Part shown: in pieces, positions 14,882 to 21,298 of the stretch
How the letters are laid out: the number at the start of each line of letters is the position of its first letter
Position numbering within the stretch: the first letter of the stretch is position 1
Assembly (NCBI RefSeq): GCF_947499295.1
Contig: NZ_CANMNP010000015.1
Span: 1-64,000 of the forward strand
Length of the DNA stretch: 64,000 bases
Direction of reading: 5' to 3'
From: an uncultured Roseibium sp.
GTDB taxonomy: Bacteria > Pseudomonadota > Alphaproteobacteria > Rhizobiales > Stappiaceae
Translations under genes and position numbers: made by a program
The notes under the pieces: model-generated
Database searches by the model: none
Seen by the model: the letters and a program-made list of their open reading frames with translations, nothing else
Told to the model about the DNA's origin: nothing

Positions 14882-15916
14882 TCATGCAAACGGTGGGGCG
14901 ATGTCAATGGTTCGCTCTAGCCAATCGGGGACAGGCAGTTTCTTCGATCTCAAGAACTCAGGGTTATAAAGTTTTGACTGATACCGTGTTCCGTGATCGC
15001 ACAAGATGGTCACAATGGTTTTCCCTGGTCCCATTTCCTTGGCCAGGCGCCGCGCACCGGCAAGATTGATAGCACTTGAGCCGCCAAGAAGTAGGCCTTC
15101 TTTCTCGGCGAGATCGAACACCAGGGGCATCGCTTCCTCGTCAGGAATTGTATAGGCGTGGTCGATCTTGAGATCGCCGACGATTACCGTCTTGCGGCCA
15201 AGACCAATTCCCTCAGAGATCGAACCTCCCTCGGAAGCAACGGCCTCACCGGTTGTGAAAAGAGATTGCATTGCCGCACCACGCGGATCTGCACAACCGA
15301 TGACGATGCCAGGCTTGTTTTCCTGAAGAAACTTCGAAACGCCGCCCAAGGTTCCGCCGGAACCAACGGCGCAAATGAACCCGTCTACCTTGCCGTCCGT
15401 TTGGGAAAGAATTTCAGGGCCGGTTGTCAAATAGTGGGCTTTGCGATTGTCCAGGTTGTTCCACTGGTCCGCGAAGATCACGCCATTTGGCTCGCTCTTT
15501 GCCATGTCCTCAGCAAGACGGCGGGCGACATGCTGATAGTTGTTAGGGTCCTTGAATGGCTTTGCAGGAACTTCGACGAGCTCTGCTCCGCAAAGGCGGA
15601 GCATGTCTTTCTTCTCCTGGCTCTGCGTTTCAGGAATAACGATGACCGTTCGGTATCCTCTCGCACTCGCAACGAGCGCAAGACCGATTCCGGTGTTGCC
15701 GGCAGTGCCCTCGACGATCACACCTCCCGGTTTAAGGTCTCCGCGAGCCTCTGCCTCCAAAATCATCTGACGCGCGGGGCGATCCTTGACCGACTGCCCG
15801 GGGTTCATAAATTCAGCTTTGCCAAGAATTTCGCAGCCCGTCTCATCTGAAAGGGCCTTGAGTCGGATAAGAGGCGTGTTGCCGATCGCATCAACAACTG
15901 AAACGGACACAGACAT
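14882..15916 (-). CDS. Cysteine synthase A (PLP-dependent)
   Basis: A 344-residue fold-type II PLP enzyme that forms cysteine from O-acetylserine and sulfide. The PLP lysine lies in NPGQSVKDRPARQMI near residue 42. The Asn loop TAGNTGIG and the phosphate-binding GSGGTLGG are present. It is somewhat longer than CysK of E. coli, with a C-terminal RTIDIAPPF tail. It resembles the cysteine-synthase branch of alphaproteobacteria, but cystathionine beta-synthase-like relatives cannot be fully excluded. Confidence 0.85.
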   Translation of the reverse strand: MSVSVSVVDAIGNTPLIRLKALSDETGCEILGKAEFMNPGQSVKDRPARQMILEAEARGDLKPGGVIVEGTAGNTGIGLALVASARGYRTVIVIPETQSQEKKDMLRLCGAELVEVPAKPFKDPNNYQHVARRLAEDMAKSEPNGVIFADQWNNLDNRKAHYLTTGPEILSQTDGKVDGFICAVGSGGTLGGVSKFLQENKPGIVIGCADPRGAAMQSLFTTGEAVASEGGSISEGIGLGRKTVIVGDLKIDHAYTIPDEEAMPLVFDLAEKEGLLLGGSSAINLAGARRLAKEMGPGKTIVTILCDHGTRYQSKLYNPEFLRSKKLPVPDWLERTIDIAPPFA

Positions 15917-16233
15917 TTAATACTATTCCTGGCTGAATTGGGCAGTTCGAATGAACCGGCCAATAGTCTTGCGGTGAGCTTCGGACGCTAAAGCTCCTGA
16001 GGAGCTTGTTCAAGATTCTATGTAAGACTTTGGGCGTGGAATGCCACAAATGGCGGGAAACTCTCAGTCAAAATTTTCCGGAATGATTGAAAGTCGCCGC
16101 CGAGTTGTTCTCATGCCCATCTAGATCAAGATTTTGAATCGGGTATTTATGGTGTAGACAATGATCTAGAAAAGGTTGTTGCGCGTATTGGACACAAAGC
16201 AACCTGGGCTCGCGGAAATATATGAGAGCGGTA
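15917..16233. other. Intergenic region upstream of the ChrR-like gene, no sigma factor
   Basis: This gap of about 317 bp, divergent between cysteine synthase and the ChrR-like gene, holds no gene. In Rhodobacter and many relatives the place directly upstream of chrR is taken by rpoE, so its absence is notable. The only recognised element is the ECF-type promoter at 16162-16189. Confidence 0.7.
16162..16189 (+). promoter_or_regulatory. ECF11 (RpoE-ChrR)-type promoter for the ChrR-like gene
   Basis: TGATCT (16162-16167) and CGTATT (16184-16189) are separated by exactly 16 bp. This matches the TGATCC/CGTA layout of RpoE-ChrR promoters with one change in the -35. The same 16-bp spacing occurs in the stronger site before the FAD oxidoreductase operon. 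A transcript would start about 40 nt before the ChrR-like ATG. Confidence 0.6.
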
Positions 16234-16890
16234 ATGGAAAAAAATGTGACTGGGATGGATGAGCTGCTAGCCGGATATGCGGCTGGAAGTCTGTCCTATC
16301 CAGCACAAGCCCTCGTCGGCGCGCACTTGGAATTGAGCGACCGCAATCGTGGCTATGTTTCATCCCTGGAAACCCTCGCTGGGGTCGGGCTTGACGATGC
16401 CGCGCCGATTGATCTTTCAAATCGCGACGCGGCTTTGTCCGCAATTTTCAGTGGTGATGACACGCTGCTGAATGACAACGCCCCACTTTCGGGCGTGCAT
16501 TCGGAAGACGCGAGTGATGTTCCCGAATCGCTCCTGTCTATTGTCGGAACTTCCATGGACAAGCTTCCTTGGAAAACGCTCCTTCCTGGCGTCAAGGAAT
16601 GCAAGTTTGGTGAAATCGACGGCTGTGTGAGCAGTCTTCTGTGGGTGCGTGCCGGACGCGCAATGCCCTCGCATACACACCATGGAACCGAATTGACCCT
16701 TGTGCTCAAAGGCGGGTTCAGGGACGAGGACGGCCATTATGTTTCTGGCGATGTTGCCTTTGCTGACGGCGATGTCGACCACAAGCCCATCGCCGATGAA
16801 GGCGAAGACTGCATTTGCTTTGCTGTGACCGCTGGTCGGCTGGAGCTTACCGGACCTGTGGGCCGCTGGTTCGCACCTTTCATGCGATAA
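16234..16890 (+). CDS. ChrR-like cupin regulator with degenerate anti-sigma zinc site
   Basis: A protein of 218 residues related to the anti-sigma factor ChrR. ATG 16234 is chosen because GAGAG lies 5 nt upstream and the N-terminus then aligns with Rhodobacter ChrR; ATG 16222 is the alternative. Of the N-terminal zinc ligands (His, His, Cys, Cys in ChrR) only one His remains: ChrR HLSLCDEC corresponds to HLELSDRN here. The C-terminal cupin keeps its metal ligands (SHTHHGTE and DHKP). No sigma gene is adjacent. It may sense through the cupin only, or bind its sigma factor without zinc. Confidence 0.8.
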   Translation: MEKNVTGMDELLAGYAAGSLSYPAQALVGAHLELSDRNRGYVSSLETLAGVGLDDAAPIDLSNRDAALSAIFSGDDTLLNDNAPLSGVHSEDASDVPESLLSIVGTSMDKLPWKTLLPGVKECKFGEIDGCVSSLLWVRAGRAMPSHTHHGTELTLVLKGGFRDEDGHYVSGDVAFADGDVDHKPIADEGEDCICFAVTAGRLELTGPVGRWFAPFMR

Positions 16891-16902
16891 TTTCACATAT
16901 TC

Positions 16903-16931
16903 AGATCCACTCGCCAGGCGTTTTGCGTAAA
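16903..16931 (+). promoter_or_regulatory. Weak ECF11-like promoter before the SDR gene
   Basis: AGATCC (16903-16908) and CGTAAA (16926-16931) are 17 bp apart. Compared with the two better sites in this locus the -35 has one mismatch and the spacer is one base longer, so this is a tentative call. Confidence 0.3.
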
Positions 16932-16957
16932 CAGTGTAAACGCTTGGAGAGTTCAAC

Positions 16958-17764
16958 TTGAGAAATCAAAACTACGTTGCGAAACCCGATGACGGCTGTG
17001 CGTGGGTTACGGGCGCAAGTTCGGGCATCGGTAAAGAGCTCGCGCTTGATCTGGCCCGGTCCGGATGGACAGTGGCGGTCACTGCCAGATCTTCGAAAGA
17101 ACTTGATGCACTTTCCGTCCAGGCGCAGAACCTGCCTGGTTCCATCCACCCTTATCCCGGTGATGTCTCTGATACGCAATCAATGTCCGAAATCTGTAAA
17201 TCGATCCTGGCCGGTTTCGGAAAAATAGCCTTGATGATTGCCAATGCCGGCGTCTATCTGCCCCAAGATGGTCTGAAGGCGGAAGCATCTGCTTTCAAGA
17301 AGAGTTTCGACATCAATCTGATGGGCACAGTCAATGTCCTGTTGCCTGTGATTGAAGCGATGAAGTCGGAGGGAAGGGGGCAGATCGCCGTCGTTTCGTC
17401 TGTTGCCGGGTATAACGGCCTACCGACCTCTGCGGCCTATGGGGCCACCAAAGCAGGACTGATAAACCTCGCGGAGTCCCTGAAATTCGATCTTGATCGG
17501 GCCGGTATTCGAATTCAAGTCGTCAACCCGGGTTTTGTCGACACTCCGGCAACACGTTCAAACCCTTTCCCGATGCCGCATCTCATTACGGTTGAACAGG
17601 CGGTACAGAAAATTAGGGAAGGTCTGCAAAACAGCAAACGCTTTGAAATAGCGTTTCCTTCGATCTTTGTATTTCAGCTCAAGTTTTTGAAACTTTTGCC
17701 TTATCGGTTCTATTTTGCCTTTATGTCGCGCGCGACGGGTTGGAACAAAAAAGAGGCCGGGTAA
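16958..17764 (+). CDS. Short-chain dehydrogenase/reductase
   Basis: A 268-residue NAD(P)-dependent oxidoreductase with a Rossmann TGASSGIG motif near residue 20, NAG (IANAGVY) near 95, catalytic Ser (VVSSVAGYNG) and Tyr-x-x-x-Lys (YGATKAG). The start is TTG at 16958: GGAGAG lies 7 nt upstream and no ATG fits. It sits next to the ChrR-like gene and convergent to the cyclopropane-synthase operon. An SDR gene also lies in the rpoE-chrR linked cluster of Rhodobacter, from memory. The substrate is probably a lipid or fatty aldehyde, by inference. Confidence 0.85.
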   Translation: MRNQNYVAKPDDGCAWVTGASSGIGKELALDLARSGWTVAVTARSSKELDALSVQAQNLPGSIHPYPGDVSDTQSMSEICKSILAGFGKIALMIANAGVYLPQDGLKAEASAFKKSFDINLMGTVNVLLPVIEAMKSEGRGQIAVVSSVAGYNGLPTSAAYGATKAGLINLAESLKFDLDRAGIRIQVVNPGFVDTPATRSNPFPMPHLITVEQAVQKIREGLQNSKRFEIAFPSIFVFQLKFLKLLPYRFYFAFMSRATGWNKKEAG

Positions 17765-17777
17765 GTCCCGGCCTTTT
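17755..17777 (+). terminator. Intrinsic terminator of the SDR gene
   Basis: GGCCGGG and CCCGGCC form a 7-bp GC stem with a TAAGT loop, followed by TTTT. The SDR stop codon lies within the loop. It separates the SDR gene from the convergent methyltransferase operon. Confidence 0.8.
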
Positions 17778-17799
17778 CATTTTTCCTGTGGGATATTGG

Positions 17800-19032
17800 T
17801 CAGGACGCTTTCACGTAAACCATCTGGCGTACATCGATGTTGCCTGACCTGAACCCGGCCTCACAATAGTGAAGATAGAACTCCCACAAACGCTTGAAAC
17901 GCTCGTCGAAGCCAAGAGGGCGGATTTTGGGCCAGGCCTGGCGGAAACTGTAGCGCCACTCGGCCAGTGTGCGTGCATAGTCCTGACCGAAAATCGTCTG
18001 GTCTTCGAGATCGAGCCCGAGTGACTTGCCGATTTCTCTCAGTCTGCCAGGGGGGGGCAACATTCCGCCAGGGAAAATGTAGCGCTGAATGAAGTCGGTT
18101 CCGCGCCTGTAATCCTCAAACATCTTGTCTTGAATGGTAATGATCTGCAGACCTGCTTTGCCACCGGGCTTCAGACACTTGGAAAGCTGTTCGAAATAGG
18201 TCGGCCAGTATTTTTCGCCAACGGCTTCAAACATTTCGATTGAAGCTATCCGGTCGTAGACGCCGCGTTCATCCCGGTAATCCTGGAATACGACATCGAC
18301 TTTCTCATTGAGGCCGGCCTTGTAGATACGTTCGCGCGCATAATCGAACTGTTCTTGCGAAATGGTCAGAGCCTTTACGTGGGCTCCAACTGTTTTTGCG
18401 ACGTGTTCCGCAAAACCTCCCCAGCCACACCCGATCTCCAGGACCTGGTGCTCCGGACGAATGCCCGTTTGCCGAACAAGCGAGGCATATTTTTCTGCCT
18501 GCGCTTGCTCCAGATTGTTGGTTTCATTGCTATAAATTGCCGAGGAATAGGTCATCGAAGGGTCGAGCCATTCCTTGTAGAACGCGTTTCCAAGATCGTA
18601 ATGCGCGGAAATATTCCGTTTCGATCCACGTTTCGTATTGGCGTTCAGCCAATGACGAAGAGAAAGCAGGAAGCGTGAGAACGGCCGACCTTGCAGGGCC
18701 TCCAGGGTGGATTCCTGATTGATGCAAAAAACCTCGAGAAAGGTCGTTACATCGGGTGACGACCAGTAACCGGCCATGAAGGCCTCACCGACCCCGACAT
18801 CGCCAGCTTGCACGACCATTCTGAAAAAACGCCAGTTATGGATCTTCAAGACGCCGTGCGGCCCGGTTTCACGGCCCTCAATCAGATAACGGCGACCATC
18901 GGGAAACTGAACTTCCAAAGAACCATAGCGGATCTTGACTGCAAGATTTGCTGCCATTCGAGCGAGGCGGGGAGTGCCCTTCAACTCGCTGCGAAGGTTT
19001 TCTTGTGTCAGGACAATAGGCTCACTACTCAT
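17800..19032 (-). CDS. Cyclopropane-fatty-acyl-phospholipid synthase family methyltransferase
   Basis: A 410-residue SAM-dependent enzyme acting on unsaturated acyl chains of membrane lipids. The SAM-binding loop (VLEIGCGWGGFAEH) lies near residue 175, and the CFA-family blocks SAHYDLGNAFY and FPGGMLPP are intact. ATG 19032 is chosen because AAGAGG lies 8 nt upstream; earlier in-frame starts would overlap DUF1365. It ends the FAD oxidoreductase-DUF1365-methyltransferase operon. Such trios make cyclopropane or modified (for example furan-type) fatty acids in relatives. Which product forms here is not decided by sequence. Confidence 0.87.
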   Translation of the reverse strand: MSSEPIVLTQENLRSELKGTPRLARMAANLAVKIRYGSLEVQFPDGRRYLIEGRETGPHGVLKIHNWRFFRMVVQAGDVGVGEAFMAGYWSSPDVTTFLEVFCINQESTLEALQGRPFSRFLLSLRHWLNANTKRGSKRNISAHYDLGNAFYKEWLDPSMTYSSAIYSNETNNLEQAQAEKYASLVRQTGIRPEHQVLEIGCGWGGFAEHVAKTVGAHVKALTISQEQFDYARERIYKAGLNEKVDVVFQDYRDERGVYDRIASIEMFEAVGEKYWPTYFEQLSKCLKPGGKAGLQIITIQDKMFEDYRRGTDFIQRYIFPGGMLPPPGRLREIGKSLGLDLEDQTIFGQDYARTLAEWRYSFRQAWPKIRPLGFDERFKRLWEFYLHYCEAGFRSGNIDVRQMVYVKAS

Positions 19033-19051
19033 CGCAGAACCTCTTGAAATG

Positions 19052-19903
19052 TTATTCATTTGATGCCAGCGAGGCGTGGCGGTTGTGCCGGTCCGGCCCC
19101 CCATCCAATGCATCTTGCGCGGGCCGAGAGTGAAATGGTACACGCTTCCGCCAAATTTTAAAGGCTTCCCAATGGATGGCGGCCATGATTTTGAACGTCA
19201 GAAATGGAACCCGCAGGCATTCTCCAAGTATGGAAGCTGTCGTGAACTTCTTTCTTTCTCCGGAAAATGTTGCCGAAAGAATTGGACCTTTGGTGTCCTT
19301 TTCCAGAATGCGAACGCGAACGCTCTCGCCCGGAGGAAGCATCCTGAAAAAATAGGACTGCTGCATGCTCAGGAAGGGAGACACATAAAATTCTTTACGC
19401 TGGGTCTGCCGAACGCCGGCGTCGGACATCTGGCCCGTTTCCACGGGCAGAGCATAAGTGTGCAGACCTCCAAACGTGTTGCGCACTTCATAGACCACAC
19501 CGGTCAGCGTCTCGTCTTCGTCGTAGGCGTAGTAGACACTCAAGGGGTTGAAGCCGTAACCAAACAGACGAGGATATGCCAGAAGCAATATCCTTTTGGG
19601 AGCGGCGATGCCCTGATCTGCCAAGAGGTTTTCTATGTGCCGTCTAAGACAGCTTCCATCACGCGGACCGTGGTCTTTCCGGTGAAACGACAGCAAGTTG
19701 AATTTGTCGACTGAAAAGAGCCAGCTGCGTCGCGACGCTTCCTCCAACCGGTCCAGGTCCAACAACATCGAGAAGACACGATAGTTGAACCTGTGCACCT
19801 TCGGTTTCATACGATGATGCATTACCGAACCAGGGTAGAGCGAGACGGCGCTCTCAGGCGCAGGCCCATTGTCGCGTAACCGATTGTTCCGCGATGAGGT
19901 CAT
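19052..19903 (-). CDS. DUF1365 family protein
   Basis: A 283-residue protein of the DUF1365 family, almost always found beside a cyclopropane-synthase-like methyltransferase and an FAD oxidoreductase. Conserved blocks visible are MHHRMKPKVHRFNYRVF near residue 28, LLAYPRLFGYGFNPLSVYY near 105, and EVRNTFGGLHTYAL. Its biochemical role is unproven; a part in lipid modification is inferred from context. Its ATG overlaps the stop of the FAD oxidoreductase by 4 nt. Confidence 0.87.
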   Translation of the reverse strand: MTSSRNNRLRDNGPAPESAVSLYPGSVMHHRMKPKVHRFNYRVFSMLLDLDRLEEASRRSWLFSVDKFNLLSFHRKDHGPRDGSCLRRHIENLLADQGIAAPKRILLLAYPRLFGYGFNPLSVYYAYDEDETLTGVVYEVRNTFGGLHTYALPVETGQMSDAGVRQTQRKEFYVSPFLSMQQSYFFRMLPPGESVRVRILEKDTKGPILSATFSGERKKFTTASILGECLRVPFLTFKIMAAIHWEAFKIWRKRVPFHSRPAQDALDGGPDRHNRHASLASNE

Positions 19904-21195
19904 TCGGCGGCTTCCAGAAACTTGTCACTGTCCTGACGTTCCCAGGGCAATTGTGCTCCAAGCGATCTGGCGACGCGCAGGCCGGACGAGAGCCCATCTT
20001 CATGGAAGCCATGGCCACCCCAGGCACCGCAATACCAAGTGTTCCTGACGCCTTGGATGTCCCCCAGACGTTTTTTTGCCGCCAACGCAGACGCATCGAA
20101 TTGTGGGTGATCATAAATGTACTTGGCAAACGTCTTGTCTTCGTCCGGAGCTTCGAACGGGTTGAGCGTCACAAACACCGGCTTGCTCCGGTCAATGTTC
20201 TGAAGTCGGTTCATCCAATAGCTCACCGTTACGTCGCGTGTTTCTCCCGCTTCACGGTCTGACATGTAGTTCCACGACGCCCACACGCGTTTGTTCTTGG
20301 GCATCAAGGCCTCATCGCGGTGCAGGTAGACTTCATTCGGACGATACCGGATTGATCCAAGTATTTCGCGTTCTTCCGGGCTTGGGTCGCCGAGCATTTC
20401 CAGGCTTTGATCCGTGTGGCTCGCAAGGATCACATGATCAAACACATCCGTATGGCCGGTGGTGTCTGTGACGACAACTTGCCCGTCTTTCCGAAGGATC
20501 TTGGTGACAGGAGTTCCCAACCGGATTTTTCCCGCCAGGGGCGCGATCAGGCGGCTGACATAATTCCGGCTGCCGCCGGAAATCGTGCGCCAGAGCGGCC
20601 TGTCGGTGGAAAGCAGCCGATGATTGTCGAAGAAGGCGACAAAGCTTTCTGCAGGATAGGCGCGCATTTCATTGATCGGCGTCGACCAGATAGCTGCCCC
20701 CATCGCGAGAAGATAGTCATTGATGAAGCCGCTCGAATATCGTTCTTCTTCCAGATAGCCGCCGAGGGTCTTTCCAGAAAGGCGTCCGGCTTTCAAGTCT
20801 TCAACCGAAGCCTTGTTGAAACGAAATATGTCACGCAACATGCTCAAAAAGCGAGGGGAGAAGAGGTTCTTGCGCTGCGCAAATATGGAATTGATAGAGT
20901 CGCCTGACCATTCCAGTTGGCCGTTGTCAGCGGACAGAGCAAAGCTCATATCACTGATTTCACTGGCTACACCAAGATGATCAAGTAAGGCTGTGAAATT
21001 GGGGTAGTTAAGCTCGTTGTAGACAATAAAACCTGTGTCGACGGACATCTTGGTCCCGTCATAGTCAATGTTTTCTGTCGCGCTGTGCCCCCCAGGGCGG
21101 GTCCGCTTCTCATACAAAACTACATCGTGCCTATCGCTTAGTGCCCAAGCTGCGCTGTTTCCGGAAATACCGGAGCCGATGACGGCAATCCGCAT
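19900..21195 (-). CDS. FAD-dependent amine-oxidase-like oxidoreductase
   Basis: A protein of 431 residues. The ATG at 21195 follows AAGGAAC and begins MRIAVIGSGISGNSAAW, the FAD-binding dinucleotide fold at the very N-terminus. GGHSATENIDYDG follows near residue 35. The C-terminus has the FAD-contact block NTWYCGAWGGHGFHEDGL. It is the first gene of the lipid-modification operon and carries the best ECF11-type promoter. A role in desaturating or oxidising acyl chains is inferred from context, not shown. Confidence 0.87.
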   Translation of the reverse strand: MRIAVIGSGISGNSAAWALSDRHDVVLYEKRTRPGGHSATENIDYDGTKMSVDTGFIVYNELNYPNFTALLDHLGVASEISDMSFALSADNGQLEWSGDSINSIFAQRKNLFSPRFLSMLRDIFRFNKASVEDLKAGRLSGKTLGGYLEEERYSSGFINDYLLAMGAAIWSTPINEMRAYPAESFVAFFDNHRLLSTDRPLWRTISGGSRNYVSRLIAPLAGKIRLGTPVTKILRKDGQVVVTDTTGHTDVFDHVILASHTDQSLEMLGDPSPEEREILGSIRYRPNEVYLHRDEALMPKNKRVWASWNYMSDREAGETRDVTVSYWMNRLQNIDRSKPVFVTLNPFEAPDEDKTFAKYIYDHPQFDASALAAKKRLGDIQGVRNTWYCGAWGGHGFHEDGLSSGLRVARSLGAQLPWERQDSDKFLEAAE

Positions 21196-21270
21196 GTTTG
21201 TTCCTTTTTGTGACTGGGCAGGCCTCTGAAGGTTCTCGCCATGGTGAAACTGTTTTTGTTTTCTTACCCA

Positions 21271-21298
21271 CTTACGGCTCTCAAAGAAGCGCGGATCA
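21271..21298 (-). promoter_or_regulatory. Strong ECF11 (RpoE-ChrR)-type promoter for the lipid-modification operon
   Basis: On the minus strand TGATCC is followed after exactly 16 bp by CGTAAG. This is a close match to the RpoE promoter recognised by ECF11 sigma factors. It lies about 75 bp upstream of the FAD oxidoreductase ATG. With the site at 16162-16189 it ties both halves of the locus to one sigma factor that is not encoded in this window. Confidence 0.7.

Follow-up and report, generated by a model that had tools for sequence, protein, structure and literature searches.

An RpoE-like sigma factor and a zinc-less ChrR-like protein, encoded apart, as a probable ECF11-type pair in Roseibium and its relatives

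The stretch of DNA analysed here (the window; 64,000 nucleotides of contig NZ_CANMNP010000015.1, assembly GCF_947499295.1, from an uncultured Roseibium sp.) carries a gene for a ChrR-like anti-sigma factor that has no sigma factor gene next to it, with cysK upstream and a short-chain dehydrogenase (SDR) gene downstream. Open reading frames (ORFs) and Pfam matches give, from left to right, cysK, the ChrR-like gene, the SDR gene and then a convergent operon, transcribed from the right, for a flavin adenine dinucleotide (FAD)-dependent oxidoreductase (its first gene), a DUF1365 protein and a CMAS-type methyltransferase (Table 1). The ChrR-like protein scored 153.3 bits against TIGR02451 (cut-off, 124.5), matched chain 2z2s_B with an E value of 1.9e-34; no other ChrR-family protein of this genome has an anti-sigma domain (the other TIGR02451 match covers the cupin part and falls below the cut-off). 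Its closest named counterpart is from Labrenzia sp. THAF82 (97% identical), and ATG 16222 is an alternative start of the gene. The original prediction, made from these letters alone, held that an rpoE next to chrR is missing, that the locus must answer to a sigma factor encoded elsewhere, which suggested a split or rewired regulon. A survey of this genome and its relatives bears these points out, and we consider it likely that the locus belongs to an unlinked sigma/anti-sigma pair of the extracytoplasmic function (ECF) group ECF11 type, whose anti-sigma domain lacks its zinc site and whose feedback is solely negative.

Table 1. Features of the ChrR-like locus, in window coordinates
Feature	Position	Strand	Basis
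cysK-like gene; marker of the ChrR site, outside the circuit	14882–15916	−	constant ChrR neighbour
Predicted ECF11-type promoter before the ChrR-like gene, TGATCT-N16-CGTA(TT)	16162–16187 (to 16189 including TT)	+	exact match; conservation
ChrR-like anti-sigma factor: zinc-less anti-sigma domain, variable linker, cupin domain	16234–16890	+	TIGR02451; 2z2s_B; ligands; predicted fold
Degenerate promoter-like site before the SDR gene, AGATCC-N17-CGTA	16903–16929	+	degenerate form conserved
SDR, next gene after chrR	16958–17764	+	PF00106, E 3e-48
CMAS/cyclopropane-synthase-like methyltransferase, likely UfaM-type (name taken from domains)	17800–19032	−	PF02353, E 2.9e-80
DUF1365 protein, likely UfaO-type furan-forming oxygenase (name taken from domains)	19052–19903	−	PF07103, E 1.1e-80
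FAD-dependent oxidoreductase (flavin amine oxidase family), likely UfaD-type desaturase (name taken from domains)	19900–21195	−	PF01593, E 1.6e-22; PF13450, E 1e-15
Predicted ECF11-type promoter of the ufaD-ufaO-ufaM-like operon, TGATCC-N16-CGTA(AG)	21273–21298 (from 21271 including AG)	−	exact match; conservation

A search of the genome for ECF11-type sigma genes, as the original prediction had proposed, yielded one RpoE-like gene on another contig (C12, 72205–72768), beside rlmN and ialB; the prediction's refuting condition, a genome without any such gene, thus does not hold. Its best match among solved structures is R. sphaeroides RpoE in the RpoE–ChrR complex (2q1z_A, E 1.3e-48; next best, 8.4e-24), and the ECF11 assignment denotes this closest structure rather than the ECF11 group profile. 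Searched against 101 genomes, the sigma retrieved its own genome once in a list reaching E 6.8e-17. Sigma and ChrR genes were apart in 57 genomes, adjacent in 26 and both absent in 18 (ChrR scores not above about 120 bits, sigma E values not below 1e-22), and thus apart in 57 of the 83 that have both; in the window's own genome they lie on different contigs. All genome counts (57 separated and 101 searched, and below 47 with operon-site sequence and 30 with rpoHII) include this genome (G000). The separated arrangement occurs in 39 genomes of the window's genus, 10 from other genera of the family and 8 from other families. Its two sites are stable: cysK adjoins ChrR in 56/57 and SDR follows chrR in 56/57, and the sigma gene, divergent from ialB and adjoining rlmN, has ialB within 1.5 kb in 57/57 and rlmN in 53/57. 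An assembly break or a recent strain-level deletion of rpoE could be suspected from a genome in 181 contigs, and is refuted because relatives with a single contig (G034, G041 and G044) show the same split, which 57 genomes share with ialB beside the sigma gene in every one; we give this explanation practically no credence.

We regard the joint absence of the two genes as the strongest evidence that they work together. Among 61 genomes of the family, 49 have the separated pair, 11 the classic adjacent pair instead and one neither, and no genome lacks just one of the separated genes. The 12 genomes without both retain the flanks of each site (rlmN–ialB in 12/12, cysK in 12/12), with a sigma gene within 1.5 kb of rlmN–ialB in none and ChrR within 1.5 kb of cysK in none. 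A tree built from CysK and IalB, whose genes flank the two sites, needs eight changes to account for the joint absence, at least four of them forced by well-supported branches; shuffled labels average 11.2. Four loci in genomes of the window's genus with classic rpoE–chrR (L416, L417, L418 and L421) carry a CMAS-type gene beside cysK that is 72–90% identical to that of the window, and neither a ChrR nor an SDR match was found at that cysK locus.

The original prediction placed two sites of the form TGATC[C/T] and CGTA, with 16-bp spacing, before the ChrR-like gene and the FAD operon, and these are the only two matches to TGATCY-N16-CGTA in the window (expected, 0.11 as the mean of dinucleotide shuffles; none of 100 shuffles reached two). 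When one mismatch was allowed (with W after CGTA), there were five matches against 2.56 expected, a number reached by 13 of 100 shuffles, and the genome-wide count of TGATC-N17-CGTA was 41 in 6.4 Mb, for which our arithmetic gives about 49 by chance for nine fixed bases (the reversed pattern matched three times). Since the genome-wide count is close to chance and the mismatched form is not enriched in the window, the promoter evidence consists of placement and conservation. The chrR site is present in 55 of the 57 genomes with the same arrangement, with 52 distinct spacers among the 55 (0.05 genomes expected from mononucleotide shuffles; other spacers from N12 to N22 give 0–3), and the FAD-operon site in 38 of the 47 genomes whose upstream sequence was long enough, all nine misses falling outside the window's genus. 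A weaker third site proposed before the SDR gene survives in part: it is inexact (AGATCC, spacer of 17 bases), and 2/56 chrR–SDR gaps hold an exact site, but the degenerate NNATCC-N16/17-CGTA occurs in 35/56 against 0.1 expected. We take the pattern to be of ECF11 type, as the original prediction did, and the same pattern was found here before classic rpoE–chrR pairs.

The genome-wide site search that the original prediction also proposed gave one further conserved site, before rpoHII, with a total that, as said, is about that expected by chance; for that reason we drew no regulon list from the counts. The site stands before rpoHII in 30/30 genomes (the best 30 of 46 matching among 61 searched, four of them with the classic pair), and this was the one match of the 39 outside the window promoters that we compared across genomes. 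In R. sphaeroides, sigma-E is described as acting directly on rpoHII, through which most of the response to singlet oxygen then runs (PMC6852236). TGATC-N17-CGTA stands before the predicted core targets chrR, the FAD operon and rpoHII. Exact sites also lie 54–106 bp before the starts of folE (GTP cyclohydrolase I), fasciclin, DUF2177 and YHS-like genes, as candidate targets (in G000 at C22:23551, C20:124729, C9:118931 and C8:61636; L207, L206, L091 and L087). The Pfam domains of the window operon fit UfaM, UfaO and UfaD as described in PMC7380195 (a comparison by description rather than sequence), in which the R. palustris genes bear consecutive numbers (RPA2569–2571), UfaO contains DUF1365 and UfaD has a predicted NAD/FAD-binding domain; ChrR turnover in R. 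sphaeroides is reported to require products of this pathway (PMC6852236). Another sigma factor might read these sites, with the RpoE-like gene beside ialB unrelated to them, given that the genome has 12 Sigma70_r2 matches and that the pattern is not enriched genome-wide. We regard this as very improbable: only one of the 12 is RpoE-like, the identical pattern precedes rpoE in 37/55 adjacent classic pairs, and across the 101 genomes, under the thresholds applied, sigma and ChrR are present together.

Upstream of the separated sigma gene itself, no sigma-type promoter was found within 500 bp in any of the 57 genomes, nor in any of 69 in an enlarged set. With such a promoter before chrR and none before the sigma gene, the sigma factor appears to induce its inhibitor and not itself; because chrR rather than the sigma gene carries the promoter, feedback in the unlinked pair would be purely negative, and the circuit appears to be rewired as well as split. 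A CtrA-type box, TTAA-N7-TTAA, lies within 500 bp before the sigma gene in 45/57 genomes against 0.28 expected (in this genome at about L213:8986–9006, on C12). We rejected the idea that CtrA has replaced autoactivation of the sigma gene. More probably the box regulates ialB, since its median distance is 63 bp to the ialB match but 212 bp to the sigma match, and 7/12 genomes without the sigma gene have it before ialB. A search for a substitute anti-sigma 3′ of the sigma gene gave, in 13 genomes, longest ORFs of which several were plainly spurious frames; the three checked in Pfam were an M15 peptidase, a SpoU methylase and a DUF1232 protein, none of them an anti-sigma, which makes this a weak test. 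In the window's genome the end of the sigma gene is overlapped by a D-Ala-D-Ala dipeptidase (M15) gene (L213:9759–10484), and in at least some other genomes different genes occupy this place. We set aside the idea that the peptidase is a new partner, because its counts across genomes came from a query shifted by one base.

The separated ChrR proteins have lost three of the four zinc ligands of the anti-sigma domain, a feature absent from the original prediction. In R. sphaeroides ChrR, zinc is bound by H6, H31, C35 and C38 in the anti-sigma domain and by H141, H143, E147 and H177 in the cupin, and the former zinc is required for inhibition (PMC6852236, the latter point as told there from Newman 2001). 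Separated ChrRs have H6 in 0/57, H31 in 56/57, C35 in 0/57 and C38 in 0/57, and so lack the zinc-binding anti-sigma (ZAS) signature (H6, H31, C35, C38; Hx3Cx2C); each cupin ligand is kept in 57/57. Adjacent ChrRs keep C35 in 24/25 and C38 in 24/25 (25 of the 26 adjacent pairs, G069 being adjacent by coordinates and unfetched). At 110 further loci, many of which are the same genomes under their names, the window's own included, C35 and C38 are missing in 89/91 without a sigma gene within 1.5 kb (of which L277, L278 and L290 have less than 600 bp upstream) and kept in 18/19 beside one. These class-level loci are the best-scoring to profiles from the separated proteins, plus 20 chosen regions, rather than a random sample, and 80 named loci include genomes already counted under G handles. 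Exceptions occur both ways, so that separation and zinc loss are distinct events: in the enlarged set G193, G199, G303, G395 and G167 are separated with the zinc site kept, and 8/55 adjacent ChrRs lack it (G079, G128, G207, G221, G223, G325, G327 and G411). In those five separated genomes (G395, G303, G193, G167 and G199; loci L365–L369, L372, L373, L309, L313 and L338) ChrR has all four ligands.

These losses raise the alternative that the ChrR-like protein has ceased to act as an anti-sigma factor and is only a sigma target, for example a cupin sensor or a lipid-damage enzyme, while control of the sigma factor lies in its transcription, in proteolysis or with a different regulator. The loss of ligands for a zinc that R. 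sphaeroides needs would suit this, the lack of a sigma-type promoter before the separated sigma gene fits other transcriptional control, and four genomes with two ChrRs have such a protein alongside a sigma-adjacent one. In conservation, however, the zinc-less domain comes close to the cupin (mean majority frequency over 48 sequences, 0.82 and 0.84; linker, 0.29). Its predicted structure is helical (mean predicted local distance difference test score (pLDDT) of at least 90 over residues 11–50), and Foldseek matched the whole model best to the ChrR chains of 2q1z and 2z2s (191 columns to 2q1z ChrR), so the ChrR fold is kept in the prediction. The class I anti-sigmas RseA and RskA function with no reliance on a zinc motif (PMC7406223; PMC6852236 for RseA), and in the 61 genomes of the family sigma and ChrR go missing jointly and never singly. 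We therefore think it unlikely that the protein has become a target alone.

We thus favour the unlinked pair, and propose a mechanism that builds on what the sequences establish: the conserved sites, the unlinked sigma gene, joint presence and absence, ligand loss, the missing promoter before the sigma gene and the predicted fold. An ECF11-type (RpoE/ChrR) sigma factor, encoded apart from its anti-sigma, would have the window locus in its core regulon, and the sigma gene beside ialB and rlmN would be expressed from a promoter not of its own type. We infer that ChrR pairs physically with the sigma factor and inhibits it independently of zinc, its anti-sigma domain placing helix I against region 4 and helix IV against region 2, contacts modelled on other class I anti-sigmas. 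ChrR may sense stress through its zinc-binding cupin and furan fatty acids from the neighbouring operon; by analogy, singlet oxygen would be the inducing signal. Once ChrR was inactivated, the sigma factor would transcribe chrR–SDR, rpoHII, the ufaDOM-like operon and probably some further genes, and newly made ChrR would then shut it off. A further step, which we offer only tentatively and hold to be somewhat doubtful, is that the unlinked, zinc-less ChrR has left the ECF11 circuit with a constant sigma, feedback through the anti-sigma alone and a sensor of narrower range. Tert-butyl hydroperoxide is reported to inactivate R. sphaeroides ChrR even in cells whose cupin is not intact, and singlet oxygen to need the cupin (PMC6852236). 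Should hydroperoxides act via the anti-sigma domain's zinc site, as we surmise, a zinc-less ChrR would be blind to hydroperoxides and answer singlet oxygen or lipid signals alone.

Several observations weigh against an unlinked, functional pair. Given the zinc requirement in R. sphaeroides, a ChrR of this type could have lost anti-sigma activity, and four genomes from outside the order, which carry two ChrRs, suggest that the orphan may have begun with a different function. The evolutionary distances of the sigma factor and the ChrR anti-sigma domain are only modestly linked (partial r of 0.39 in 48 genomes), too weakly to carry weight. The tree behind the joint absences was built from two flanking genes only, and those of the sigmas and ChrRs, made on thinned sets (108/124 sigmas and 92/126 ChrRs), are weakly resolved. 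In a sample of the class, the sigma matched in 149/337 genomes and ChrR in 122/337 (E ≤ 1e-25), at unequal sensitivity. The exact chrR site is missing in G089 and G094 of the 57, and in the enlarged set the promoter is found in 67/71 orphan ChrRs (missing in those two and in G118 and G429). Finally, 18/55 adjacent sigma genes also have no exact promoter, so its absence is not peculiar to the separated ones.

As for how the split arose, the wording that rpoE is 'missing' holds in that none lies beside ChrR, and nothing shows its loss from this locus. We dropped the idea that rpoE was cut out of the window locus: within the class sample, 23 other genomes have chrR next to the ialB-linked sigma gene (11/23 with a sigma-type promoter). 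Because those genomes pair chrR with the ialB-linked sigma gene, the sigma gene probably stayed at its site, and the window ChrR is probably an old paralogue or a relocated copy. The four genomes with two ChrRs (G221, G223, G325 and G411) have a sigma-adjacent ChrR and an orphan zinc-less ChrR with a sigma-type promoter, and the orphans of G221, G325 and G411 (not G223) share a clade with the window ChrR (SH-aLRT (Shimodaira–Hasegawa-like approximate likelihood ratio test) support, 95). From the 23 paired loci and these four genomes, a plausible order of events is that a second ChrR came under sigma control, the sigma gene then lost its promoter and the adjacent ChrR was lost last. The sigma tree requires seven changes of adjacency, of which supported branches force only one. 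In these four and G327, all genomes from outside the order (loci L354–L358, L298, L299, L302 and L322), the ChrR adjacent to the ialB-linked sigma gene has degraded zinc ligands.

A group of marine bacteria thus seems to use a rewired form of a well-known damage-response circuit. A survey of class I anti-sigmas that drew on ECF-gene neighbourhoods, as described in PMC7406223, left open whether orphan anti-sigmas control sigma factors that have none as a neighbour; the present pair would be a concrete and widespread case, its partnership backed by the repeated joint absence of two unlinked genes. Because zinc site and autoactivation are both missing while the core targets are kept, it is also a natural experiment on whether the anti-sigma zinc serves inhibition or sensing, and on what sigma autoactivation does. 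We found no report of an unlinked or zinc-less ChrR in the open PubMed Central literature, a search that does not establish priority.

The system shares with RpoE–ChrR of R. sphaeroides, as described in PMC6852236, the sigma sequence, the two-domain layout of ChrR, the cupin zinc ligands, a target operon likely of the furan-fatty-acid type and rpoHII as a predicted target. It differs in that the genes are unlinked, H6, C35 and C38 are missing and the sigma gene has no sigma-type promoter, whereas in the classic operon sigma and anti-sigma are induced together. In our best reading, what sets this system apart from the known ECF11 kind is the unlinked pair, the zinc-less anti-sigma domain and feedback that is negative only. 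Classic rpoE–chrR–SDR loci (G028, G038, G048, G053 and G099) have the same chrR–SDR order, convergent CMAS–DUF1365–FAD operon and promoter pattern; there rpoE precedes chrR, whereas the window has cysK in that place and its sigma gene elsewhere, and the four other proteins are 39–48% identical. Like RseA of E. coli and RskA of M. tuberculosis (PMC7406223; PMC6852236), the window protein is predicted to have an anti-sigma helical bundle without zinc, but those belong to other families and are known in complexes with their own sigma factors, whereas this is a ChrR/cupin protein encoded apart. The operon that converges on it has domains fitting those described for the UfaM–UfaD–UfaO pathway of R. 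sphaeroides and R. palustris (PMC7380195), and is likely of that type.

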